From: Limisphaerales bacterium
Lineage (GTDB): Bacteria > Verrucomicrobiota > Verrucomicrobiia > Limisphaerales > UBA8199
Direction: 5' to 3'
NCBI GenBank assembly: GCA_003152225.1
Contig: PLZQ01000120.1
Coordinates: forward strand, 27,195 to 71,038
DNA length: 43,844 bases
Numbering within the stretch: the first letter of the stretch is position 1; each line of letters opens with the position of its first letter. A model generated the notes under the pieces. The model did no database searches, was not told where the DNA came from, and saw nothing but the letters and a program-made list of their open reading frames with translations. A program made the position numbers and the translations under genes. Shown here in pieces: positions 24,138 through 34,546 of this stretch.

Positions 24138-24177
24138 GGGCGCGTGGCGGAATTGGCAGACGCGAAGGACTTAGGAT
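24138..24177 (+). other. attL: orphan 5' half of tRNA-Leu(TAG)
   Basis: These 40 bases match the first 40 bases of the intact tRNA-Leu at 34462-34501 exactly and then diverge (TCA versus CCT). No 3' half follows, so this cannot fold into a tRNA. It marks the left junction of the island. A TTTACA...GAAAAT spaced 17 bases lies upstream (24096-24124) and may be the tRNA's old promoter. Confidence 0.9.
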
Positions 24178-24357
24178 TCAGAAAATTGCCCTTTTTAGTG
24201 GTTTCATGCGGTTGCTCGCGAAGTGTGTTTAACCCTTGATTCTATTGCATGAAATGCTGTTTTAGCCTGTCCAAACAGGGGGCGAGGTTGCGCATGTGCT
24301 ACTAGCACAAATACTAGCACAGAAGTCAAAGCACCTGACTCATAATTGACAAATCTG
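24178..24357. other. Left end of the island: stems and integrase arm region
   Basis: No gene is visible. The stretch contains an inverted repeat TTTCATGC (24202-24209) / GCATGAAA (24247-24254), a small stem CCTGT-CCAA-ACAGG, and the paired arm sites at 24301-24321. This is typical of an attachment-site flank. Confidence 0.5.
24301..24321 (+). repeat. Left integrase arm sites (two ACTAGCACA, 12-bp period)
   Basis: ACTAGCACA occurs at 24301-24309 and 24313-24321, 12 bases apart start to start. The same pair with the same spacing and orientation occurs at 34381-34401 near the right end. Direct repeats near both ends of a tRNA-integrated element are the expected arm-type binding sites of its tyrosine recombinase. 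Confidence 0.75.
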
Positions 24358-24734
24358 TTTTTCAGGAGTCCTCACACCTCATCCCGACCAATGTGTACAA
24401 GGGTTTCGTGAATTCACTGTCTGCCTGAATCAGCACGAATCTGCTCGAAAAATAGCAAACAGTATCAGATTGCAGTATCAGATTTGCCTTTCCCTGTCCC
24501 GAACTCCACCGCCGCAAATCCAGCTTGCAACCCCCCAGGAACTTTTCCCCATTCGCGTTCCCGTGTTGGGCATGGGACTTGCGAATAACTAAGGCCAAGT
24601 CCCATGCCCCGCACGCCAACGCTCACCCCATGAATGCCTGGTCGTGATCGGCTTTTGAAACCAGCACTGCGCCCCTTCTGCCCTCGCAGCACTGGTTTCA
24701 AAACCGACACCACCAGGTAGAATTACGCGCGACC
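24358..24734. repeat. Structured ~376-bp direct repeat, copy 1
   Basis: Copy 1 of a repeat found again at 28083-28457, roughly 90-94% identical over most of its length with the more variable end at the right. It contains two strong hairpins. Hairpin A is GGGCATGGGACTTG (24568-24581) with CAAGTCCCATGCCC (24596-24609). Hairpin B is TTTTGAAACCAG (24653-24664) with CTGGTTTCAAAA (24692-24703), extended by CTGCG/CGCAG. Together with copy 2 it brackets the RM cassette. An antisense frame of 85 codons runs through it, but the matching frame in copy 2 has an early TAA, so I do not call a gene. Confidence 0.9.
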
Positions 24735-24913
24735 GTGCGTCAACCGTTGGCGACCACCTGCCCCCGCGACCGCCCTTACTCCAAACCGCAGCCCTTATTC
24801 CACCCCCTGCCACAGTCACCCCGCCCCCTCGCCCAAAATCCCTTTCGCAAGCGCAATAGTTTAAACTCCTTCCACGGCCACCGCGGGCGCAATACCCTTC
24901 CTAATTGCGTCCG
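24735..24913. promoter_or_regulatory. Upstream region of the restriction endonuclease gene
   Basis: CGCAATAGTT at 24852-24861 is shared exactly with the upstream region of the methyltransferase gene (27489-27498). This is a possible operator half-site for the cassette's HTH protein. A second CGCAAT lies at 24888. No clear -10/-35 pair could be fixed. Confidence 0.45.
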
Positions 24914-25936
24914 ATGAAACTCGAAGACAAACTCCGTTCCGACATCACAGCGAAAAAGCTTCAGCGTCTTCCCATCGCGCTGCAAGGTATCACCAAGGAG
25001 CGAATCGCCGAAGTCCTCAAAGCCCTCGACCGCACATCCCGAGACCAAATTGACGCTGTCTTCGCGCTGCTCGACGACATAAACCCGAGCTGGTTCTACG
25101 AAGCTGTGGAAAAGGGCCTCAAGGTCTGTCACGGAGCATCGACGGCGCACATCGCTTGCCACGTCGGCGTACTCCAGCGCAACGGCGGGAAGCTCGATCG
25201 CGAAGGCCGCGACTATTGGCTCAAGCCGCTCTGGGAAATTGGAGCCTTCGAGAAAATCTACTTCGACTCAGAAACAGCCGAGTTTCTGCCAGGCCACCCA
25301 GTTCCGAAGTCGCCAAACTCCGCGTATCGAATCGCCCCGGCGTTCCTGCAAATCCTGAAAGCGTCCGACGCCGACCGCAAAGCCCTCCTGGCGGCGTGGG
25401 CCAGCAAAGACGCGATCCGAGCGCGCTTGCAAGTCCAGGCGGAGCTCGCCAAAGCCACCAGCGCCAAAATCGGGACCCCACACCAGGGCCTCATCACCGC
25501 CGCCTGCGAGGTTTACGTCCCAAACTTTCTCCCGGGCTTCGAGGTCTTGTACATAGACGCTACGGACGGCCAGCGAGTCACAGCAGAACAGGAACTCGCC
25601 CTCAAGAAGGCTGGCATTGCCATCGGTCTCGGCGACTCAATGCCCGACATCCTCCTCTGGAATCAGAAGACCGACGTCCTCTGGGTCGTCGAAGCAGTCA
25701 CGAGCGACGGCGAGGTTGACTCGCACAAGGTTCAGAGCCTCACCGCCCTTGCTAGCCGTTCCGGAAAAAAGAAAATCGGCTTCACGACCGCCTATGCCAC
25801 ATGGAGAGACGCCGCCTCTCGCCAGGGAAAACACAAGAATATTGCCCCGGGCACCTACATTTGGATTCGCGAAGACGGCGCGAAGCAGCTCAGTGTCGAG
25901 ACCTTTGAATCATCGCCTCAACGGCTGCATCAATAG
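24914..25936 (+). CDS. BsuBI/PstI-type type II restriction endonuclease
   Basis: The 340-aa protein starts MKLEDKLRSDITAKKLQRLP (ATG 24914; the frame is open from a TTG at 24905). The N-terminal ~140 residues are helical (LKALDRTSRDQIDAVFALLD). The C-terminal domain has AGIAIGLGDSMPDILLWNQK (PD at about residues 244-245) followed by LWVVEAVTSDGEVDSHKV and KIGFTTAYATW, the arrangement of BsuBI/PstI family endonucleases. Such enzymes cut CTGCAG, but specificity here is only inferred. Its 3' end overlaps the convergent methyltransferase gene by 47 bases, which fixes the two as one cassette. Confidence 0.85.
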   Translation: MKLEDKLRSDITAKKLQRLPIALQGITKERIAEVLKALDRTSRDQIDAVFALLDDINPSWFYEAVEKGLKVCHGASTAHIACHVGVLQRNGGKLDREGRDYWLKPLWEIGAFEKIYFDSETAEFLPGHPVPKSPNSAYRIAPAFLQILKASDADRKALLAAWASKDAIRARLQVQAELAKATSAKIGTPHQGLITAACEVYVPNFLPGFEVLYIDATDGQRVTAEQELALKKAGIAIGLGDSMPDILLWNQKTDVLWVVEAVTSDGEVDSHKVQSLTALASRSGKKKIGFTTAYATWRDAASRQGKHKNIAPGTYIWIREDGAKQLSVETFESSPQRLHQ

Positions 25937-27458
25937 CCGCCTGGTCATGCGCCCCGGTCCCGACGCTCGCCGCCAGCCGGCCGAACTCCTCCTTTGACGG
26001 ATACCGGAGACTGCGCAGATCGGTTGCATTGACTTGGGTGTGCCCGCTGAACTGCCGGAAATACGAGTCCACCACGGTCGAGTTCAGATACAGCGCCAAC
26101 CCTTCCGCCAGGGCCCCGTCCAGCGGCCGGCCCTTGCGGTGAAAGTAATTCAGGTGGTTCTCGAAGCCGACCGACGCGAAGTCGGCTAGGTTGCCCTCCG
26201 GACGGAACACCGTTGCCACGACGCGCCTCCGCTCCTCTTTGGCCGTGAACCTTTTCACCAGGACATAGACGCCATTGGGAACCAGCAACTCCTCTGTCTC
26301 CGGGACCGCCAGCAAAGCATTCGCCTTCCGCGACCCCGGACACGGCCAATGCACACACCCGCCATTGAAGTGCAGGGGGTAAATCAGCGGTACGGTGTGC
26401 TCTCCCGGATTCTTGCGTAAAAAGTCCCGCGCGCGGAAGTCCACCACCCGCCCGGTGGACACTTCAATTCCAAGCCCAGCCAGCGACGCCGGCAGCCCCA
26501 TGACCGCCAGCTTCACGTCATCATCAGCCACATCCAGCGCCAGGTGAACCACCCGGCTGGAGTCGGCCGGGTCCATCACGCGCGCGTACGGCACAGTGCG
26601 CGACCGTGCGGCTCCCGCTGGCAGACCATCGCTACTCGTCAGCATCACAGAGATCCGCCGTTTCCCGCTTCGCCGGGCGTACATGATCAGGTTCTCCTGC
26701 AGCACATCGTCGCCAGAGAAAAGAGCATCCCGCCGGTCGAAGACATGCAGCCGCTCCAGCGACATCAGGCCAAAGAAACACTCTCGGAATGGCAGGAAAT
26801 ACGGCCCGTTACAAAAACTTCGCGGGGTGATCGCCACCATCTGGCCCTCCGCCTCAAGCAGCCGCGCAACCAGCCAGAGAAACCCGGTGTACAGGTTGGA
26901 GGTCTCCAGGCCGGCCCGCCGCAACAACGACCTGGCCTCCGAATCCGTGTTTATCTTCCGGTACGGTGGATTCATGATGGCGTGCGTAAAGCCATGCCTC
27001 ACCCGCGACCCCTTGAAAAGATCATCCTCATCCAGTAGCGCCGCCCCGTCCTTGAGCATGTCCCCGTGGTTCAGCACGTAACTCGTCGGCACACCCGCCG
27101 CCCGGCCCGCCTCGACACACTCCTCCAGGACCTGCCTCAGCTTGCCAATAAACTCCGCTTCCGCTTCCCAAACCGTCAGATGCAGCGAACGCGCTTTCTC
27201 CTCGCGGCCAAGGACCTCCTCCACAAATGCGGCCGTCAAAGTCCCTACGCCCGCGCCCGCGTCCAGCAAGCGCACGTCGCCGACAGCCGATTCAAACATG
27301 CCCGCGAGCAGCCCCGCCACGCCCGGCGGGGTCAAAAACTGCCCCATCCCGCTCCGGTAATCAGCCTCCAGCGCGGCGCACCCCTCACCGCCCAGGCGCA
27401 CAGCCAGGGCCAGCGGCGATTCCGCCACCAAGCAACTGCCGTTTTCTGCCTGTCTCAT
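25890..27458 (-). CDS. N6-adenine DNA methyltransferase of the RM cassette (Eco57I/PstI-type)
   Basis: The 522-aa protein shows motif I as LLDAGAGVGTLTAAF (about residues 64-78), preceded by GQFLTPPGVAGLLAGMF typical of the Eco57I/TaqI group, and the catalytic NPPY in HAIMNPPYRK (about 163-166). A C-terminal target recognition region follows. It methylates adenine to protect the host from the neighbouring nuclease. ATG 27458 is used; an ATG at 27512 is possible and would translate the palindrome at 27478-27497. The HTH gene lies just upstream on the same strand. It converges with the endonuclease gene and overlaps its end. Confidence 0.87.
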   Translation of the reverse strand: MRQAENGSCLVAESPLALAVRLGGEGCAALEADYRSGMGQFLTPPGVAGLLAGMFESAVGDVRLLDAGAGVGTLTAAFVEEVLGREEKARSLHLTVWEAEAEFIGKLRQVLEECVEAGRAAGVPTSYVLNHGDMLKDGAALLDEDDLFKGSRVRHGFTHAIMNPPYRKINTDSEARSLLRRAGLETSNLYTGFLWLVARLLEAEGQMVAITPRSFCNGPYFLPFRECFFGLMSLERLHVFDRRDALFSGDDVLQENLIMYARRSGKRRISVMLTSSDGLPAGAARSRTVPYARVMDPADSSRVVHLALDVADDDVKLAVMGLPASLAGLGIEVSTGRVVDFRARDFLRKNPGEHTVPLIYPLHFNGGCVHWPCPGSRKANALLAVPETEELLVPNGVYVLVKRFTAKEERRRVVATVFRPEGNLADFASVGFENHLNYFHRKGRPLDGALAEGLALYLNSTVVDSYFRQFSGHTQVNATDLRSLRYPSKEEFGRLAASVGTGAHDQAAIDAAVEAMIQRSRH

Positions 27459-27477
27459 GCTGCGAGATTGTCCAAAC

Positions 27478-27497
27478 ACTATCGCATACGCAATAGT
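27478..27497. promoter_or_regulatory. Near-palindromic candidate operator before the methyltransferase gene
   Basis: ACTATCGCATACGCAATAGT pairs with itself at 8 of 10 positions and lies 20-40 bases upstream of the methyltransferase ATG, between it and the HTH gene. Part of it (CGCAATAGTT) recurs upstream of the endonuclease gene. This fits a controller-protein box that balances the two enzymes. Confidence 0.5.
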
Positions 27498-27501
27498 TAA
27501 T

Positions 27502-27705
27502 TCAAGCACCATTTCCGGGAGGCCGTCCGCCCTTTGGCCCGCTCCGGCGCCCATGCCGCTTGAACCGCTCCACTTCCCGATCCTGCAACAGGTGATCCCG
27601 ACCGTGCTTTTCCGCGGCCAACCGCCTTTCCTTGATTAACTGCCGCACCCGCACCGGCGTGACGCCCAGGATCTGAGCGGCCTCTTTCGTAGTGACCAGG
27701 CTCAT
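27502..27705 (-). CDS. Small HTH DNA-binding protein of the RM cassette
   Basis: The 67-aa protein starts MSLVTTKEAAQILGVTPVRV (ATG 27705), then RQLIKERRLAAEKHGRDHLL and QDREVERFKR with a basic Gly/Pro-rich tail. This is the helix_turn_helix_17 / excisionase-like fold (binding helix TPVRVRQLIKE, wing around AEKHGRDHLL). The gene is 43 bases upstream of the methyltransferase on the same strand. It is a candidate controller for the cassette; an excisionase role for the island is an alternative. Confidence 0.7.
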   Translation of the reverse strand: MSLVTTKEAAQILGVTPVRVRQLIKERRLAAEKHGRDHLLQDREVERFKRHGRRSGPKGGRPPGNGA

Positions 27706-28082
27706 CTCACCCAAAGTTGTACGCCCCGTTGGCAGATCAATCAACCGTATTCAGACCGCAAGGTGCCAGACGATTCCCCCGGCCAGCGCATCACCGGTCC
27801 TTGCTCCGGAAACACTCGCAAGCTCGCTGGCCTCCGCTGCGGCCCCGTCATGCGCTGGCCCCCAATATCAGTTTCACCTCTGGCCGTCCGTGTTCCGCCC
27901 TGGGCCTAACGGCTCGCCCTGGTACCCCCGAGCCACGGCCCAGGCCTCCACACTCCCGGCCAGAAGTGAAACCAGCGCGCCCTCCGCCACCCAACCCAAT
28001 AATCGGCAGTCTCCACGAACAGCCTCCGATCACCACCCCCCACAGATCGCCCGACATCTCCTCACTCGAAATTGCCGAACCC
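27706..28082. other. Gene-free, CT-rich stretch with an inverted repeat
   Basis: I do not support any of the open frames here. AGTTTCACCTCTGGCCG (27878 onward) and CGGCCAGAAGTGAAAC (27956 onward) form an inverted repeat of about 16 bases with one internal mismatch and a ~60-base loop. It lies just before copy 2 of the structured repeat. No promoter for the HTH gene could be fixed. Confidence 0.5.
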
Positions 28083-28457
28083 ATTTTTCAGGAGTCCTCA
28101 CACCTCATCCCGACCAATGTTTACAAGGGTTTCGTGGATTCACCGTCTGCCTGAATCAGCACGAATCTGCTCGAAAAATGGCAAACAGTATCAGATTGCA
28201 GTATCCGATTTGCCTTTCCCACTCCCGAACTCCGCCACCGCAAATCCAGCTTGCAAACCTCCAGGAACTTTTCCCCGTTCGCGTTCCCGTGTTGGTCATG
28301 GGACTTGCGAGCAACCAAGGCCAAGTCCCATGCCCAACCCGCGAACGCTCACCCCATGAATGCCTGGTCGTGTCAGATTTGCAACCAGCCCCGCGCCCCA
28401 CCCCCCGCTCGCGGAACTGGTTTCAAATCCGACACCACCAGGTAAACCTCGCGCGAC
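28083..28457. repeat. Structured ~376-bp direct repeat, copy 2
   Basis: Copy 2 of the repeat at 24358-24734. Hairpin A keeps CATGGGACTTG (28297-28307) with CAAGTCCCATG (28322-28332). Hairpin B is ATTTGCAACCAG (28377-28388) with CTGGTTTCAAAT (28417-28428) and upper stem CCGCG/CGCGG. Relative to copy 1, a T-A pair has become A-T at the base and a T-A has become C-G in the upper stem, so pairing is kept while sequence changes. The antisense frame of copy 1 is broken by a TAA here. Confidence 0.9.
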
Positions 28458-28561
28458 GAGCATCAACGATTTCCGGGCGGTGTCCTAATTTGGATTTTCG
28501 AGGGATTCTGGCGATTTTTGACCGTCCCGTTTGGGGTTGACGGCCAGAAAGGGGGTGAAAT

Positions 28562-30238
28562 ATGATCGCCGGAATGCTCTCGCAAAACATCCACATTACG
28601 CCAAAAACAATTGGGAAACTACTAAAAGAAGAGCGGTTGCAAGTGCCGCCAAGCCAACGGTCATACAGGTGGAAAGCAGAACATGTGGAGGACTTGATTA
28701 GAGATATTCGCACTGCAATGGATGACGGTGCGGACGAATATTTTCTCGGCTCGATTGTCAGTATTGAAACGGGTGGCCGGATATTGATTTACGATGGCCA
28801 ACAGCGTCTTGCCACGACCATGATTCTTGTCGCCGCAATTAGAAATGCGTTGCTCCTGCTTGGGAACGATAAAGACGCTGGAATTGCTGAAGCAAGTTAT
28901 TTGTTTTCTCAGCGCCGCGGCGAGGTTGATGCGGAACCACACCTGACACTGAACCTCGAAGATAGAGATTACTTTTTCAGGCGAATCCTTCCGCGACCAG
29001 ATGAACAAGCGAAAAAGACAACCTTCACGCGGATGCGGGATTCGTACAAGCGCATGGAGGCGGCTGCAAAATTCACAAAAACATTTGTCGAGGACAAGCT
29101 GGTTAAAGGCAGGAACACGAAAGACGCCGACAAGCAGCTTAACCTCTGGCTGGATTTTATTGAAGATTGCCTACAGGTAATATGGGTGCAAGTAGTGGAC
29201 GAGCGAACAGCGTTCACGATTTTTGAGACGATGAATGACCGAGGGCTGAAGTTGTCTGCCGCTGACCTTCTAAAGAATTATCTGCACGCCACGGCTGATG
29301 ACAAACGAGATGAAATTGTTCAGAAATGGGCCGCAATGACGGCGGTTCTTGAGACGGTGGAGGGGGAAGAAGAGAATGTTGTGGAATATATGAGGTGCTT
29401 TTGGGTATCGCGTTACGGCCATACCAGAACTCGCTACCTTTACGATAAAATTAAAGAAAAAACTACCAACAAAAGCAAGGCTCTTACATTGGCTTCAGAA
29501 TTGGAAAACTCTGCCCAGGATTACGCAGCAATTGTCATGGCATCGCACGAACGAACCACAGATCGTGGCGAAGCGGTAAAGGCAAATATCGAAACGCTGA
29601 AGGTTCTTGGGGTAACACAGCTTCGCCCAATGCTGCTGTCGGCATTTGTGAAATTCAAACCCGGACAGTTTGCAAAATTACTAGAACGATCAGTTTCGTG
29701 GTCTGTGCGCTTCATGGTAACGGGCACGCCCAGCGGCACAATTGAGGGATATTACGCAAAAATAGCAGTAGCTATCTGGGATAATAAAATTGCGACCGCA
29801 GAAGAAGCCACATCCGAAATAAAGCACCTAATTCCGAAAGACGATCCGTTTCGCGCGGCATTTACTGAACTTGAGGAATCAAAGCCCAGCATCGCCAGAT
29901 ATTATCTACACGCACTACAAAAGACAGCAGACGGAAGCACGCTAGATAAGGAGCTTACATTGGAACACATCTTGCCAACTAAGCTCGACGCCAAGTGGAA
30001 ATTTACAGAAGAGGAGCACACGACGCATCTCCACAGAATTGGTAATCTTGTCCTTCTAAAATACAACGAGAATGGAGCAATACAAGGAGCCGATTATGCG
30101 GCTAAAAAGAAGGTTTTTTTAGGAAAGGACACGTGCTCCTTAACGAAAGATGCCGCAAAATACGACGAATGGAGCACATCCACGATTGAGACGCGCCAGA
30201 AAGACCTCTCTGAAATTGCGGTCAAAACATGGGGGTGA
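28562..30238 (+). CDS. DUF262/DUF1524 (GmrSD-like) nuclease, probable defence protein
   Basis: The 558-aa protein has the DUF262 N-terminal module: LQVPPSQRSYRWKAEHVEDL (about residues 27-46), YFLGSIVSIE and ILIYDGQQRLATTMIL (DGQQR at 78-82). The C-terminal DUF1524 HNH-type module has LTLEHILPTKLDAKW (His at about 468) and HLHRIGNLVLLKYNENG (about 487-503). This pairing is the GmrSD/BrxU-type layout of type IV restriction and related phage-defence enzymes that use nucleotides and cut modified DNA. AGAAAGGGGGTG gives a good ribosome binding site. Base composition is clearly more AT-rich than the flanks, suggesting separate acquisition. A terminator follows. Confidence 0.85.
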   Translation: MIAGMLSQNIHITPKTIGKLLKEERLQVPPSQRSYRWKAEHVEDLIRDIRTAMDDGADEYFLGSIVSIETGGRILIYDGQQRLATTMILVAAIRNALLLLGNDKDAGIAEASYLFSQRRGEVDAEPHLTLNLEDRDYFFRRILPRPDEQAKKTTFTRMRDSYKRMEAAAKFTKTFVEDKLVKGRNTKDADKQLNLWLDFIEDCLQVIWVQVVDERTAFTIFETMNDRGLKLSAADLLKNYLHATADDKRDEIVQKWAAMTAVLETVEGEEENVVEYMRCFWVSRYGHTRTRYLYDKIKEKTTNKSKALTLASELENSAQDYAAIVMASHERTTDRGEAVKANIETLKVLGVTQLRPMLLSAFVKFKPGQFAKLLERSVSWSVRFMVTGTPSGTIEGYYAKIAVAIWDNKIATAEEATSEIKHLIPKDDPFRAAFTELEESKPSIARYYLHALQKTADGSTLDKELTLEHILPTKLDAKWKFTEEEHTTHLHRIGNLVLLKYNENGAIQGADYAAKKKVFLGKDTCSLTKDAAKYDEWSTSTIETRQKDLSEIAVKTWG

Positions 30239-30280
30239 GATGGTCAGAAAACAGAAGTAATGGAAATTGCCGTTTAACAA

Positions 30281-30316
30281 AGGCCCACTGGGTAAAACTG
30301 GTGGGCCTCTTGTTTT
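30281..30316 (+). terminator. Rho-independent terminator after the DUF262/DUF1524 gene
   Basis: AGGCCCAC (30281-30288) pairs perfectly with GTGGGCCT (30301-30308) across a 12-base loop and is followed by CTTGTTTT. It lies 43 bases past the stop codon. Confidence 0.8.
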
Positions 30317-30770
30317 ATCCAAATTTGCTCTTGGACCATCCCCACAGGCTGGCAGACTCGGCCTCTGAATCTCAGCAGGAAACAGCTTGCGATTCTTGGG
30401 GACATCGTGTCCGCGTGCATCGTGGCCGCGTGGTTCATCGGGGGGCGCAAAGGTGCTTAGACCCGATTGGCACGCACAACACGCCCCGGAACCGAACCGC
30501 TTCGCGCCCGACTCCGCTTCACTCCGTTGCGCTACGAGGGACGTCCGGCTTAAGCGCAGGGCGAGGCGTCTTGGAGTGTCCAGCCTTCAATTTCATCGGG
30601 GCATAGTTCATCTTCAAGCGAGCCCCTACCACCCCCGCCGCTGGCGCGGCGGGGGTGGTAGGGGCACCACTTGCATTATTTCACAGATGGCAGGTATGCC
30701 GCAGCCTGGGCAGCGCGCTATGGCCCTTCCCTTGACGTTTACGGCCCCGTCTGGGGCTGGCTTCAGCCGG
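30317..30770. other. Gene-free region beyond the Rep gene with strong hairpins
   Basis: No coding region is supported between the DUF262 terminator and the end of the Rep gene. It contains a 20-bp perfect hairpin at 30622-30665 and a smaller GCCCC/GGGGC stem near 30750. A GC-rich segment at 30540-30575 resembles intergenic repeat debris. It may hold the element's replication origin. Confidence 0.5.
30622..30665. repeat. Perfect 20-bp hairpin with 4-base loop, candidate origin
   Basis: The left arm GCCCCTACCACCCCCGCCGC (30622-30641) is the exact reverse complement of the right arm (30646-30665), with loop TGGC. No U-tract follows on either strand, which argues against a terminator. It lies about 105 bases past the stop codon of the HUH Rep gene, the kind of structure at which such nucleases nick. 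Confidence 0.6.
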
Positions 30771-31400
30771 TCAAGGGTCAAGAGGCGTGTGAACCGTTAT
30801 CGCCGGTCCAGTGACGCGCTCAGAAGGAGGCGCTTTGCTTACTCCGCTTTGCACTGTGCTCGACGCCGTGTCTGTCCCCCTCGTCTCGTGCCCACCAATC
30901 CCGCGCCAGCCGGATCGACTCCGATTGCCCAGGTATCGGCAAACACTCTTGGACAGCGTCACGTCGCACGAACCACCAAACTTTGACAGCTCGTGATAGT
31001 CGCCGGCCCACCGTGTGGCCTTTGACTCGGTCAAACCGCTCCCCTTCAAAATATAATCCAGTCCATCGAGTGAAGAATTATACACGCTGACCCGCGCAAT
31101 CCCCCCGCCCAAACGCTCCCATTGAGACATCAGGGCAAAGCAGTTGCGCCCACCAGCAGAAGGGGGCAGCCCCGCGATTACCGCATGTTGGTGCAATCGG
31201 CCCGTGGACTCGCCACTCTCCCGCCGAAGGCACCATAGTATTTCAGTGAAATGCACCCGGAAGCTCCGCGCCTGGATTCGCACCAACGCCACGAACATTT
31301 GCGGCCCGAACCTGGCACAATGCTTCTCGCTTCTGAATGAGAAGGTGCAGAAGTATTGCCAGTTGACCGCAGCCAAAGCGTGGAGTTCCGGATTGTGCAT
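30771..31400 (-). CDS. HUH-type rolling-circle replication initiator (Rep)
   Basis: The 209-aa protein shows the three Rep motifs in order. Motif 1 is YFCTFSFRS (about residues 16-24), motif 2 is GRLHQHAVIAGL (H70-Q-H72, the metal-binding pair), and motif 3 is LDYILKG with the catalytic Tyr at about 116 and Lys at 119 (YxxK). Only one catalytic Tyr is seen in motif 3. Such proteins nick one strand at an origin and start rolling-circle replication. The start is 3 bases after the ssDNA-binding gene stop, so they are co-translated. The last ~55 residues are basic and low-complexity. Family membership is inferred from motifs; exact relatives are not known to me. Confidence 0.72.
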   Translation of the reverse strand: MHNPELHALAAVNWQYFCTFSFRSEKHCARFGPQMFVALVRIQARSFRVHFTEILWCLRRESGESTGRLHQHAVIAGLPPSAGGRNCFALMSQWERLGGGIARVSVYNSSLDGLDYILKGSGLTESKATRWAGDYHELSKFGGSCDVTLSKSVCRYLGNRSRSGWRGIGGHETRGTDTASSTVQSGVSKAPPSERVTGPAITVHTPLDP

Positions 31401-31403
31401 GGA

Positions 31404-31685
31404 TTACCTTTCCTGCTTCCCAAACAGGCCCACGATCTTGCCCCGCGCCCGGAGCCGGCCACCGAACGGCAGCAGTTCCCGGATTCCCAGGTTAATCACC
31501 TTGTCTTGCAGCTTGCCGGCGTGAACCGGTTTTTCCTCCTCGCTCAGCGCGTACTCAATCGGCTGGGCCAATCGCTCGCCCGTTTCGCTCTGGTCCATCA
31601 CCGTGATGATTTGCTGCTTCACGAGGCCCTTTTTCCCGGTGTACTCATCCGGGCGGTCACTCATCACTAAGACTTTCACTGTCAT
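31404..31685 (-). CDS. Putative ssDNA-binding protein (inovirus gene V-like)
   Basis: The 93-aa protein starts MTVKVLVMSDRPDEYTGKKG after AAAGGAAATACA. It continues with VMDQSETGERLAQPIEYALS and LGIRELLPFGGRLRARGKIV. Size, beta-rich content and the position just before a Rep gene match filamentous-phage gene V-type ssDNA-binding proteins. It would coat displaced single strands during rolling-circle replication. Its ATG overlaps the stop codon of the 80-aa gene upstream (ATGA). I cannot confirm the family without a structure or profile search. Confidence 0.55.
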   Translation of the reverse strand: MTVKVLVMSDRPDEYTGKKGLVKQQIITVMDQSETGERLAQPIEYALSEEEKPVHAGKLQDKVINLGIRELLPFGGRLRARGKIVGLFGKQER

Positions 31686-31924
31686 TGTATTTCCTTTTGT
31701 TGTTTGCTGGCAGTTGTTCGCACGCACACTGCCAGCCGGTGTTCACATGCGCCGCGTTTGCCTGAACCCGCCCGGGCCGCGGAATGCCGGCGGGAAATCT
31801 CAAATATTGTTTCGAAACTCCAAACGAGCTGGCGATTCGTCGCCCCGCTGCGAACCGCACGGAAAACGCCACCCCCACCTCCTTGGCTCACCGTTTCTTT
31901 GCGTGGTTCCCCAGGGTAATTCAT
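31682..31924 (-). CDS. Unknown 80-aa protein coupled at both ends by ATGA overlaps
   Basis: This frame starts at ATG 31924, overlapping the stop codon of the upstream HTH gene, and ends with a TGA overlapping the ssDNA-binding gene start. GGAAAGAG lies before the start. Two exact ATGA junctions make it very unlikely to be a chance frame. The sequence is MNYPGEPRKETVSQ, then GGGGGVFRAVRSG, then a middle of Trp/Phe/Ile residues and a basic Arg/Ala-rich end with two Cys. I do not recognise it. It could assist replication initiation. Confidence 0.6.
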   Translation of the reverse strand: MNYPGEPRKETVSQGGGGGVFRAVRSGATNRQLVWSFETIFEISRRHSAARAGSGKRGACEHRLAVCVRTTASKQQKEIQ

Positions 31925-32172
31925 GGCGCGATCTCTTTCCGTGAAGGCACTTTGTGGACTTGCGCAAATTCTCCAGTAACAGCGCGACGGTTGAACTCTT
32001 CAATTGCTGCCTGCGTGAGGTACTGCCGCCCCGCGATGTTCACGGTCGTGAGCCAGCCCTTCTTGCGCCAACGCCACGCCGTGCAGGGCGTCACACCGAC
32101 CTGTTCCAGCCATTTGCACAGGCTTATGACCGCTTGGCCGATGGTTGCATCACGCTTTGTAGAAACTTGCAT
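31921..32172 (-). CDS. HTH DNA-binding protein, first gene of the replication operon
   Basis: The 83-aa protein (ATG 32172) contains CKWLEQVGVTPCTAWRWRKK then GWLTTVNIAGRQYLTQAAIE, an excisionase/MerR-like winged HTH that ends EFNRRAV. A TTG 12 codons upstream is less likely as a start. It heads the run HTH, 80-aa protein, ssDNA-binding protein, Rep. It faces the XRE regulator across two matched operators, so it may be the Cro- or Xis-like partner in a control switch. Confidence 0.75.
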   Translation of the reverse strand: MQVSTKRDATIGQAVISLCKWLEQVGVTPCTAWRWRKKGWLTTVNIAGRQYLTQAAIEEFNRRAVTGEFAQVHKVPSRKEIAP

Positions 32173-32265
32173 CGATGTTGTATTATGGTACTTCACATAC
32201 AATAGCAACCCCTCCTAGCTTTGTATTGTATTTTGAGTTGCATCATACAACACTTGGCAAATTCT
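32173..32265. promoter_or_regulatory. Divergent switch region with two TTGTAT-N13-ATACAA operators
   Basis: The region between the HTH gene (minus, start 32172) and the XRE gene (plus, start 32266) contains TTGTAT (32178-32183) paired with ATACAA (32197-32202), and TTGTAT (32226-32231) paired with ATACAA (32245-32250). Both pairs have exactly 13 bases between half-sites. Their centres are 48 bp apart. This is a classical dual-operator layout for a dimeric repressor. Confidence 0.8.
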
Positions 32266-33153
32266 ATGAAAACACGAAAAGATTCCGGGCCGTTGGTTGC
32301 TCAACTCCGTAAGACCATCGGGAAATCTCAATCCCAGTTTGCCGCGATGATTGGCGTCTCCAAACACACCATTATCAGCGTGGAAAATGGCCGCAACAAA
32401 CTGAGTAAGAATCTCGCCAGCAGAATTCAAATGGCTACCGGGGCGGAAATCTCCGACGAACGTTTAAGATTTCAACCCTTCATGGAAGGCCCCAGCAAAC
32501 TGACCCCAGAAGCGCGCAAATTCCTGCACACCCGTTGGGACGGCACCCGCAAATATGACAATCTGTATACCCGCCAGGACTTCGTCCAATGGCGCGATAA
32601 CTTCTACCCCAGCAATGATGAAACAGCGCGAAAGCTCTTTGATAAAATAAAAATGTGGGTTGAGTTTCTTTTCAGAGCTGCCGCAAAGCCGGGGGTTGCT
32701 CAAAACCGAGATCGACTCCCAGCCATTTATCAATCGCTGGTTCAATGGTTGAATGAGTCGCTCGAGAACTTCAAACTCGCAAGAGAGATTGATGATATGT
32801 TGGAACAGGAAACCCACGCTGTTGGGCAGGCTGCCTATGACATTTCTTGTCTCCGAACCGAGAAAGACCTCGACCGGGTCAAGGAAGAATTTGCTTCGTA
32901 TGGTTTTGATTATGACGAGGTGAAGAAAAGCTTCAAAAAGGCTAAGCCTGGTGACTGGATTGTCCTAGAAACGGAGATCAGAAGCTTATGGCATCCATTC
33001 AACGATTCTCTAGCCATTCCCTGTGCCACAAGAACGCTTCGCCCAAAGCCAACATTTTGGTTTGAAAACGGAATCGAATTATTCCGAAAAGCAGGCTTTA
33101 CAACAATGGTCGAGCCTCAAGCCGAAAGACGTTCATCTAAAATTCCGTCTTAA
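32266..33153 (+). CDS. XRE-type HTH regulator with a large C-terminal domain
   Basis: The 295-aa protein has an N-terminal XRE HTH: LVAQLRKTIGKSQSQFAAMI then GVSKHTIISVENGRNKLSKN (about residues 10-50). The remaining ~230 residues are mostly helical (ETARKLFDKIKMWVEFLFRA) and unknown to me. ATG 32266 is preferred over the open frame at 32221, whose extra residues overlap the operator. It likely represses the divergent replication operon by binding the TTGTAT-N13-ATACAA sites. Its 3' end overlaps the convergent integrase gene by 17 bases. Confidence 0.82.
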   Translation: MKTRKDSGPLVAQLRKTIGKSQSQFAAMIGVSKHTIISVENGRNKLSKNLASRIQMATGAEISDERLRFQPFMEGPSKLTPEARKFLHTRWDGTRKYDNLYTRQDFVQWRDNFYPSNDETARKLFDKIKMWVEFLFRAAAKPGVAQNRDRLPAIYQSLVQWLNESLENFKLAREIDDMLEQETHAVGQAAYDISCLRTEKDLDRVKEEFASYGFDYDEVKKSFKKAKPGDWIVLETEIRSLWHPFNDSLAIPCATRTLRPKPTFWFENGIELFRKAGFTTMVEPQAERRSSKIPS

Positions 33154-34372
33154 TACCCACCGGGCCAAACTTCACCCGTTGCGCTTGTTGCTTTTTATGG
33201 CTGTCCGCCAAATGACCGTACACTTTGCCAATTAGAATTCCGCCGTCTCTGTGTCCAACCCATTCGGCAATCGTCATGTAATCAATCCCGCTCATCACGC
33301 AATAGCTGATGAAATGATGCCGCAGATCATGGAACGCTTTGCTGTCCATCTTGGCGTGCGCCCGTACCAGCTTCAGGGACTCGCGAAAGCTTTGTGCGTG
33401 AATATCCTTGATGCCGCGCTGCGGTGAGGGAAAGAGCCAGTGCGAATCGGGCGCGCGGCGCTTGAACATTTCCAGCAAGTGCGCCCGCAGTTTGGGATTG
33501 AAGTCCACTGTGCGCCCGGTCTGATTCTTCGTGTCCCCACTCGCGCCGATGGTCAGTTGCTGGCGCTCAAGGTCCACGTCCTGCCACCGTAGCGCCAGCG
33601 CCTCTTGCTCTCGCGCCCCGCAGTAGGCCAGCAAGCGGATGTAATCACAGAACTGAAGCCAGTTCTTCGTCACTGGCGAGCCATCCTGCTTCTCGTCCAT
33701 CGCCGCAGTGCAAAGCCTCTCCAGGTCCTCACTGGTGAACAAGTCCCGCTTTGGAGTTGAGCATTTGAGCGGGCGCAGATTCTCAGTGGGCAGGCGCTTG
33801 ATCCACTCGTCATCAATCGCCCGGTTCAGAACGTTGCGAAGTATCACCACGTCAAGATTGACCGTGCGGGGACTAGCGCCCGCCTCCAAGCGCTTGGCGA
33901 TGTAGGCGTTGATATGCACCCTGCGTATCTTGTCCAGGTGGACGCCCCCCATGTGCTTTAGCCAGCCGTTAAGGGCGTATTCCTCTTTCTGTATCGTACG
34001 CGGCTTCTTGGTTCCGTCGCCGCTCTTAATGAATTCAAGATACGCCTTCACGTAATCGTTGAATTTCGGAGTGCGTGAGAGAACGGGCAGGTCGTTCTCA
34101 GACCGGCGGACCTTCAACCGGTTCATCTCCTCTACAGCCTGGGCGACGGTTTGAACGGAACTGCCCGCCTTGTCCACAAGGGCGACGCGCCGGGTCTTCT
34201 TCTCGCCGGTGTTGCCGTCCTCGAAAGTCAATTGCGCGTAGAATCGCCCGTTACGGACCCAAAGGCCGCGTATCGGCTGCTTGCGTCCATTCAAGACTTT
34301 GGTAAACTCAGCGGCATGAGATTGACTGTGGCTGTCAGTAGTTTGTTCGCTTTCTGTTGCGTCTCGTTTCAT
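33137..34372 (-). CDS. Tyrosine recombinase / integrase of the island
   Basis: The 411-aa protein has an N-terminal arm-binding part (residues ~30-90), a SAM-like core-binding domain (FNDYVKAYLEFIKSGDGTKK then MGGVHLDKIRRVHINAYIAK) and a catalytic domain. Catalytic residues are Arg in LLAYCGAREQEALAL (about residue 252), the HxxR of FHDLRHHF (about 345-350), the His of GHRDGG and Tyr in GKVYGHL (about 383). It integrates the island at the tRNA-Leu anticodon loop. Its ATG lies 90 bases from attR, next to the arm sites, which suggests that the integrase binds over its own promoter. It converges with the XRE gene. Confidence 0.92.
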   Translation of the reverse strand: MKRDATESEQTTDSHSQSHAAEFTKVLNGRKQPIRGLWVRNGRFYAQLTFEDGNTGEKKTRRVALVDKAGSSVQTVAQAVEEMNRLKVRRSENDLPVLSRTPKFNDYVKAYLEFIKSGDGTKKPRTIQKEEYALNGWLKHMGGVHLDKIRRVHINAYIAKRLEAGASPRTVNLDVVILRNVLNRAIDDEWIKRLPTENLRPLKCSTPKRDLFTSEDLERLCTAAMDEKQDGSPVTKNWLQFCDYIRLLAYCGAREQEALALRWQDVDLERQQLTIGASGDTKNQTGRTVDFNPKLRAHLLEMFKRRAPDSHWLFPSPQRGIKDIHAQSFRESLKLVRAHAKMDSKAFHDLRHHFISYCVMSGIDYMTIAEWVGHRDGGILIGKVYGHLADSHKKQQAQRVKFGPVGIKTEF

Positions 34373-34380
34373 GCCGCAAC

Positions 34381-34401
34381 ACTAGCACAACTACTAGCAC
34401 A
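34381..34401 (+). repeat. Right integrase arm sites (two ACTAGCACA, 12-bp period)
   Basis: ACTAGCACA occurs at 34381-34389 and 34393-34401, matching the pair at 24301-24321 in sequence, spacing and orientation; flanking bases (CAGAGTCAAA versus CAGAAGTCAAA) are also shared. They lie between the integrase start codon and attR. Confidence 0.75.
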
Positions 34402-34426
34402 GAGTCAAACTTTTCTTCGCAATTCA

Positions 34427-34455
34427 TTGAAAATAACTTGTTTTGCTAAGTAAAC
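34427..34455 (+). promoter_or_regulatory. Possible island-supplied promoter of tRNA-Leu
   Basis: TTGAAA (34427-34432) is followed 17 bases later by GTAAAC (34450-34455), six bases before the tRNA. The -10 is weak. Because this sequence lies inside the island, transcription of the intact tRNA must now start from island DNA or from read-through. Confidence 0.35.
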
Positions 34456-34461
34456 ATGGTT

Positions 34462-34546
34462 GGGCGCGTGGCGGAATTGGCAGACGCGAAGGACTTAGGA
34501 TCCTTCGGAGCAATCCTTGCAGGTTCGACCCCTGTCGCGCCCACCA
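34462..34546 (+). tRNA. tRNA-Leu(TAG), reconstituted at attR
   Basis: The sequence folds as a leucine tRNA. The acceptor GGGCGCG pairs with CGCGCCC, the D-arm is GCGG...AGACGC, the anticodon stem AAGGA/TCCTT has loop CTTAGGA (anticodon TAG), there is a long variable arm, and the T-stem is GCAGG/CCTGT; then A and an encoded CCA. The first 40 bases are duplicated at 24138-24177, so the 5' half here came with the island. Confidence 0.96.

Follow-up and report, generated by a model that had tools for sequence, protein, structure and literature searches.

Direct repeats around a restriction-modification set in a Limisphaerales bacterium as probable left ends of tRNA-targeting integrative elements

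Genes and repeats at the locus

The window, i.e. the 43,844-nt stretch of Limisphaerales DNA analyzed here, carries two copies of a repeat on its plus strand, at positions 24358-24733 (copy 1) and 28084-28457 (copy 2). The copies lie in direct orientation, 3726 bp apart, with 90% identity across 374-376 nt, and are the sole copies in the 8.4-Mb source assembly, which is fragmented (89.8% complete, 5.9% contamination). The only genes between them are type II restriction-modification (R-M) and HTH genes, without integrase or transfer genes. They encode (i) a BsuBI/PstI-type restriction endonuclease (24905-25936, plus strand; PF06616); (ii) an Eco57I-type DNA methyltransferase (25890-27554, minus strand; PF07669, PADLOC MTase_II); and (iii) an HTH_17 protein, possibly the controller (27502-27744, minus strand; PF12728). 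An initial annotation had described two direct repeats flanking exactly these three genes. The repeats and the bracket were borne out; a structured stretch not listed there (CD; 27771-28058, fold z = -5.4) also lies between the copies, directly before the core of copy 2. The CD stretch is 86% identical to a solo insert in a congeneric genome (G001:C769) and had matches in 12 of 196 genomes.

Each copy folds into two long hairpins, as had been described (whole-copy fold z = -6.9 and -6.3). Of the compensatory changes reported between the copies, the T-A to C-G change is clean and the single such case (T24668-A24688 in copy 1, C28392-G28413 in copy 2). The other pair reads G24651/A24703 against A28377-T28428, and a different alignment is needed to obtain T-A to A-T. 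Pairing is lost at one additional base pair in copy 1 and at one in copy 2. The 96 paired columns hold only 6 of the 33 differences between the copies. Each copy is a composite, with an integrase attachment-site end in its 5′ third and a two-hairpin element in its 3′ half.

A complete element at tRNA-Leu(UAG)

Both copies sit inside a larger element that has its own att repeats, arm-type sites, and integrase and carries the R-M set together with a GmrSD-type gene. It spans about 10.3 kb (24138-34546, plus strand), with a GC content of 0.56 compared with 0.62-0.63 in the flanks. The intact tRNA-Leu(UAG) gene (34462-34546, plus strand) marks the attR side. On the attL side lies a displaced tRNA-Leu 5′ half in the same orientation (24138-24177, plus strand), whose 40 bp are identical to 34462-34501. 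A tyrosine integrase gene (33137-34372, minus strand; PF00589, PF24624; also placed by the integrase tree) is located inside, beside one end, and reads away from the tRNA. This arrangement of intact tRNA, same-orientation fragment, and internal integrase is that of a tRNA-gene integrative element. Arm-type pairs (ACTAGCACA x2) are present on the left (24301-24323) and, as a 96% copy, on the right (34381-34403), both on the plus strand, and the same geometry was found in other genomes. Since the tRNA-Leu repeat, the integrase, and twin ACTAGCACA at both ends coincide, we regard 24138-34546 as one element with both ends recognizable.

Directly after copy 2 follows a GmrSD-type restriction protein (28562-30238, plus strand; PF03235, PF07510, PADLOC HEC-06). 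Two further genes on the minus strand encode a small HTH protein, excisionase-like by position (31921-32208; 74% identity to an ORF beside the related integrase in locus L041, no Pfam match), and a putative HUH-type Rep (30771-31400; 27% to the Rep of L170), a weak assignment made by motifs read from the sequence (FCTFSF, RLHQHAVI, LDYILKG). We also noted a perfect 20-bp inverted repeat with a 4-nt loop at 30622-30665, between the GmrSD and Rep-like genes.

The motif CTAGCACAnnnnCTAGCACA occurred 28 times in 18 of 293 genomes of the order, compared with three occurrences of the reversed control. In fetched loci it was found 70-80 nt before intact tRNA-Leu genes, usually together with an integrase related to that of the window (44-64% per matched stretch). 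At other fetched sites it lay 123-135 nt after tRNA 5′ halves, mostly of tRNA-Leu and once of tRNA-Met. A few fetched sites were without a recognized tRNA, one of them adjoining a 41% integrase.

The 5′ part of the repeat as an attachment end

Homologues of the first 128 nt of the repeat lie downstream of truncated tRNA genes in other genomes. Copy 1 contains the twin arm-type motif CAGTATCAGATTGCAGTATCAGAT (CAG motif) at 24460-24483, and copy 2 contains it with one mismatch at 28186-28209, both on the plus strand. Searched alone, the motif was detected in 39 of the 293 genomes, with the reversed control at zero everywhere. Spacing was measured for the 76 unique CAG sites in fetched DNA, comprising 34 right ends, 30 left ends, and 12 sites that were neither. 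At 33 of the 34 right ends, the motif was positioned 74-78 nt upstream of nucleotide 1 of an intact tRNA. At left ends it followed a truncated tRNA 5′ half at 125-128 nt (17 sites), 112-115 nt (12 sites), or 138 nt (one site). In total, 62 of the 76 sites showed a nearly fixed tRNA distance (33 at 74-78 nt and 29 at 112-128 nt); as a control, any tRNA-like match was present in 134 of 1500 random contexts from the same loci. The tRNAs at these ends were those for Ser, Arg, Met, Lys, Pro, and a few others. The 12 sites with neither tRNA relation include copy 2 of the window and the G001 solo insert. It may be added that the two left-end spacing classes (112-115 and 125-128 nt) differ by about 12 nt, roughly one helical turn.

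Copies 1 and 2 are laid out like left ends: an anticodon-loop-like core, followed about 114 nt later by the arm motif. The core is GCACCTGACTCATAATTGA in copy 1 (24331-24349, plus strand; aligned with tRNA-Ser/Met fragments at left ends) and CCTCACTCGAAATTG in copy 2 (28060-28074, plus strand). Compared with typical left ends, these tRNA-like cores are shortened to about 15-19 nt and differ from each other.

Divergent tyrosine integrases adjoin most right ends. In a tree of the integrases, CAG-arm (22) and CTA-arm (7) integrases fell into separate clades (two changes, the minimum), with moderate support for the CAG-arm clade (82/91). Such coupling of clade and arm type is the behavior that arm-type binding sites would be expected to show. 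Taken with the near-fixed tRNA spacing and the divergent integrases, the tree favors the earlier proposal of a recombination site or module boundary as far as the 5′ part is concerned, and the assignment of this part to the attachment end of a tRNA-targeting element family is well supported.

Left and right CAG ends were also seen on one contig in three cases (G114:C300, G119:C28, and G222:C55), suggesting whole elements of about 11, 42, and 43 kb. A different sequence inside the repeat, CCCGACCAATGTTTACAAGGGTTTCGTG (28103-28136), recurs after the 3′ ends of intact tRNA-Pro and tRNA-Cys genes (L025 and L026) and may be another type of attachment site.

Exact arm motifs were found in 41 stretches among 84,980 named genomes, mostly labeled Verrucomicrobia(ota), subdivision 3, or Limisphaerales; among metagenome contigs with the motif, a few are labeled otherwise. 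The arm motif was missing from IMG/VR and the repeat from phage and plasmid records, so a phage or plasmid origin was rejected. No paper describing these elements was found in the literature searched.

The two-hairpin element

The two-hairpin element occupies 24547-24731 in copy 1 (hairpin A 24555-24622, hairpin B about 24638-24717) and 28273-28455 in copy 2 (hairpin A 28281-28348, hairpin B about 28363-28442), both on the plus strand. A covariance model (R1) built from nine homologues scored them at 184.7 and 198.8 bits, respectively. Searched across 293 genomes of the order, the model detected the element in 25; a search with a covariance model of the two copies had been proposed in the initial annotation. 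An independent set of 388 genomes from the phylum, screened under stricter filters, gave a match only in the genome of the window itself. The matches were thus restricted to the order, and the homologues contained paired changes. An alignment of 43 matches, in which a single copy is sometimes represented by both strands, was fitted to the model, which favors structure; in it, 36 of 47 pairs showed changes on both sides and 91% of cells paired. None of 500 shuffles reached this number of double changes, and no slide came near it. In the unfitted alignment of nine sequences, ten pairs had changes on both sides. Covariation is therefore much stronger across homologues than between the two copies of the window, and it supports, for the 3′ part, the proposal that a folded structure is under selection. 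The element had no Rfam match above the gathering score, and a known ncRNA was rejected on this ground.

Placement was analyzed for 26 hairpin copies examined closely. In ten of them, a same-strand tRNA 5′ fragment lay no more than 600 nt upstream (control, 76 of 2000); fragments downstream or on the opposite strand were found once each. An arm or near-arm motif accompanied 13 copies (one or two of these motifs being weak). About half of the copies were thus situated just inside such ends. The remaining half lay away from recognized att ends, so that the hairpin part is not limited to the link with cargo that had been suggested. The hairpin element is linked to element ends, yet it also occurs at ordinary intergenic places. 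No widely shared partner gene recurred near the hairpins: the output of a cluster comparison consisted mostly of ORFs read through the hairpin itself, plus RHS-type genes beside a divergent subfamily. Members of this subfamily lie a few hundred nucleotides downstream of genes for RHS-type proteins (L184, L186, L189, L191, and L192).

Defence genes at other ends

Examples of cargo were picked by eye from about 30 left ends. They comprise (i) Cas9 (L177 and L038); (ii) an N6 methyltransferase (L113); (iii) AbiE pairs (L046 and L115); and (iv) AAA-type defence candidates (L051 and L093). Several other ends had no recognized defence gene. The question raised earlier, whether other copies flank other defence genes, can thus be answered positively for att ends, some of which adjoin Cas9, AbiE, and AAA-type genes. 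The genes for the Cas9-like proteins lie near left ends of tRNA elements at 6732-9815 of L177 and 12388-16146 of L038, and the former starts about 120 nt after the hairpins.

Origin of the bracket around the R-M genes

Both ends around the R-M set are left-type with differing cores, and no CAG-arm right end precedes copy 2. Within the window, homology switches at 27766/27771 between two sources, both in the congeneric G001 genome; to the left, R-M homology extends as far as 24838. One G001 contig carries relatives of the endonuclease (79%) and of the HTH gene; no att end or hairpin was found on it. Copy 2 with its 313 nt upstream forms the solo insert on a separate contig. Given these separate sources and the switch in homology, the locus is a mosaic that combines an R-M block with left-end blocks. 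In two other genomes, the relatives of the R-M genes lack both att ends and hairpins. On the R-M contig of G001 (L292, G001:C251), the window methyltransferase had no detected relative. The composite at copy 1 (tRNA-Leu fragment, ACTAGCACA arms, and Ser-like core) recurs in L041, in another family, where the integrase is 62% identical. At L049, a right arm, a tRNA-Ser 5′ half, and a left arm follow each other in a row, which indicates tandem elements.

As part of the overall explanation given below, the R-M set is probably CIME-like cargo that accreted between two left ends of a second element family. Because the assembly holds no CAG-family integrase site beyond copies 1 and 2, the segment may be a relic. 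A plain segmental duplication appears unlikely; here, homologous or illegitimate recombination would have copied one left end, tandem site-specific integration would have played no part, and the R-M bracket would be accidental. Such a duplication would account for the left type of both ends, for the R-M relatives that carry no ends, and for the 90% identity of the copies to each other compared with only 85% between copy 2 and its G001 counterpart. However, tandem accretion is directly visible in L049, the region upstream of copy 2 is conserved as a block and has a history of its own (the G001 solo insert), and copy 1 is preceded by the end of another element, so that the copies share no common upstream flank.

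Possible roles of the hairpins

For the function of the hairpin element, our leading guess is a single-strand origin or transfer site, prompted by the G2P-type HUH Rep genes of several related elements; we hold it tentatively, with readings as an RNA or as a MITE about as likely. Most likely, yet still well short of an even chance, the element would be a strand-specific folded site on single-stranded element DNA, serving as a Rep-dependent origin, in transfer, or as a lagging-strand start. A G2P-type Rep (PF23343) was clear in L041 and L173 and below the cut-off in L170; L041 has the Rep and no hairpin match. Among 22 Rep matches in 60 genomes, about eight share a contig with arm sites or hairpins at a distance of about 5 kb or less, according to a comparison of coordinates. 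Profile comparison of the two Rep groups, with three to four sequences each, gave nothing, and AlphaFold models of the Rep-like and SSB-like proteins of the window were poor (pLDDT 43 and 40). Raw fold energy prefers the minus strand in 24 of 24 cases, z-scores in only 14 of 24, so this preference was not taken as proof of strand specificity.

Alternatively, the hairpin element could be an independent, non-autonomous MITE-like repeat that landed beside left ends since mobile DNA tolerates insertions, a reading to which we give appreciable weight although we do not favor it. Several copies per genome occur in G268, G270, and G116, many of them at ordinary intergenic spots; copies share a start near TTCCCC and an end near GGCCGCGA, and arm and hairpin are separated by anywhere from 7 to 199 nt. 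Against this, copies per genome are few, no recurrent transposase was found near them, and those close to tRNA fragments sit downstream on the same strand (ten, with one and one elsewhere).

An ncRNA gene or a leader RNA upstream of cargo genes is a rather doubtful explanation. Strong covariation and restriction to the order would suit an RNA, and genes for the endonuclease, GmrSD, Cas9, and a methyltransferase lie downstream in the orientation of the hairpins, with starts within about 60-175 nt. However, besides the missing Rfam match, the plus strand of the repeat has more A·C mismatches (43) than G·U pairs (24), opposite-strand genes follow several hairpin copies, and the case includes no promoter or terminator signals.

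An integron-type attC or an IS91/ISCR end exchanging cargo is very improbable: L173 (G221:C456) and L175 (G268:C60) do show a tRNA-fragment left end and hairpins, behind which lie an integron-type integrase, cassette-like genes, and GCCTAA-type boxes, but such box-like motifs lie beside L172-L175 only, the window copies have no R boxes and the window element no integron-type integrase, and Y2 transposase (Y2_Tnp) was not matched on any contig with a hairpin copy, the sole trace being a truncated IS91-type start at the end of L175.

Discussion

The repeats are probably two copies of the left end of integrative elements that target tRNA genes and form a family within Limisphaerales. In each copy, a crossover core resembling an anticodon loop would be followed by arm-type sites for the integrase (twin CAGTATCAGATT) and by a distinct two-hairpin element. 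The tyrosine integrase of the element would bind these sites and recombine within the anticodon loop of the tRNA gene. At its integrase end, the element would supply a new tRNA 5′ half, and the old 5′ half would remain as a fragment at the other end; the element would presumably excise and be mobile. In the window, a segment of this family, consisting of core, arms, hairpins, R-M genes, and the CD stretch, forms a tandem with another left end, behind which GmrSD lies. The whole tandem sits within the complete 10.3-kb element of a sister family, with its ACTAGCACA-arm integrase, at tRNA-Leu(UAG).

With the Islander tRNA-gene islands (PMC4383910), these elements share the intact tRNA plus displaced fragment, the integrase by one end, and crossover in the anticodon loop. 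In the Islander set, the displaced piece is the 5′ half in 159 of 3919 islands (PMC4383910). Here it is the 5′ half that is displaced, so the element supplies the tRNA 5′ half and the upstream region; in addition, arm motifs and integrases belong to two lineage-specific families. The nearest known concepts are CIMEs and tandem accretion (PMC5704250; for the Dehalococcoides ssrA islands, PMC3146451), where integrase-less cargo also lies between att ends beside an integrase-bearing element. In contrast to CIMEs, both ends here are left-type with degenerate cores, each with a two-hairpin element, and mobilization is putative. Rolling-circle origins of HUH Reps (dso/sso; PMC5714925) likewise are long folded DNA sites, and related elements carry Rep genes; for the hairpins, a nick site and an origin function would be putative, and the window gene is only weakly assigned as a Rep. 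Integron attC sites are also folded repeats beside exchangeable cargo, and an integron-type integrase is present at L173 and L175; here, however, there are two separate hairpins, and R boxes and IntI are lacking from the window copies and the window element, respectively.

Possibly, though this is the more speculative form of our reading, a lineage-specific tRNA-targeting family carries an undescribed two-hairpin device just inside one end, which would act on single-stranded element DNA or as RNA and would mark a dock for the exchange of R-M, GmrSD, Cas9, and AbiE genes. The two-hairpin element, with its strong covariation, is undescribed and lacks an Rfam entry, and an element that supplies the tRNA 5′ half together with the upstream region represents a rarer configuration among mapped islands. 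The repeats have the look of recombination ends, belonging to elements that carry defence genes and occur in one order of soil and freshwater bacteria. Two integrase families, their arm sites, near-fixed tRNA distances, and defence cargo can now be traced in this order, whose members are mostly uncultured.
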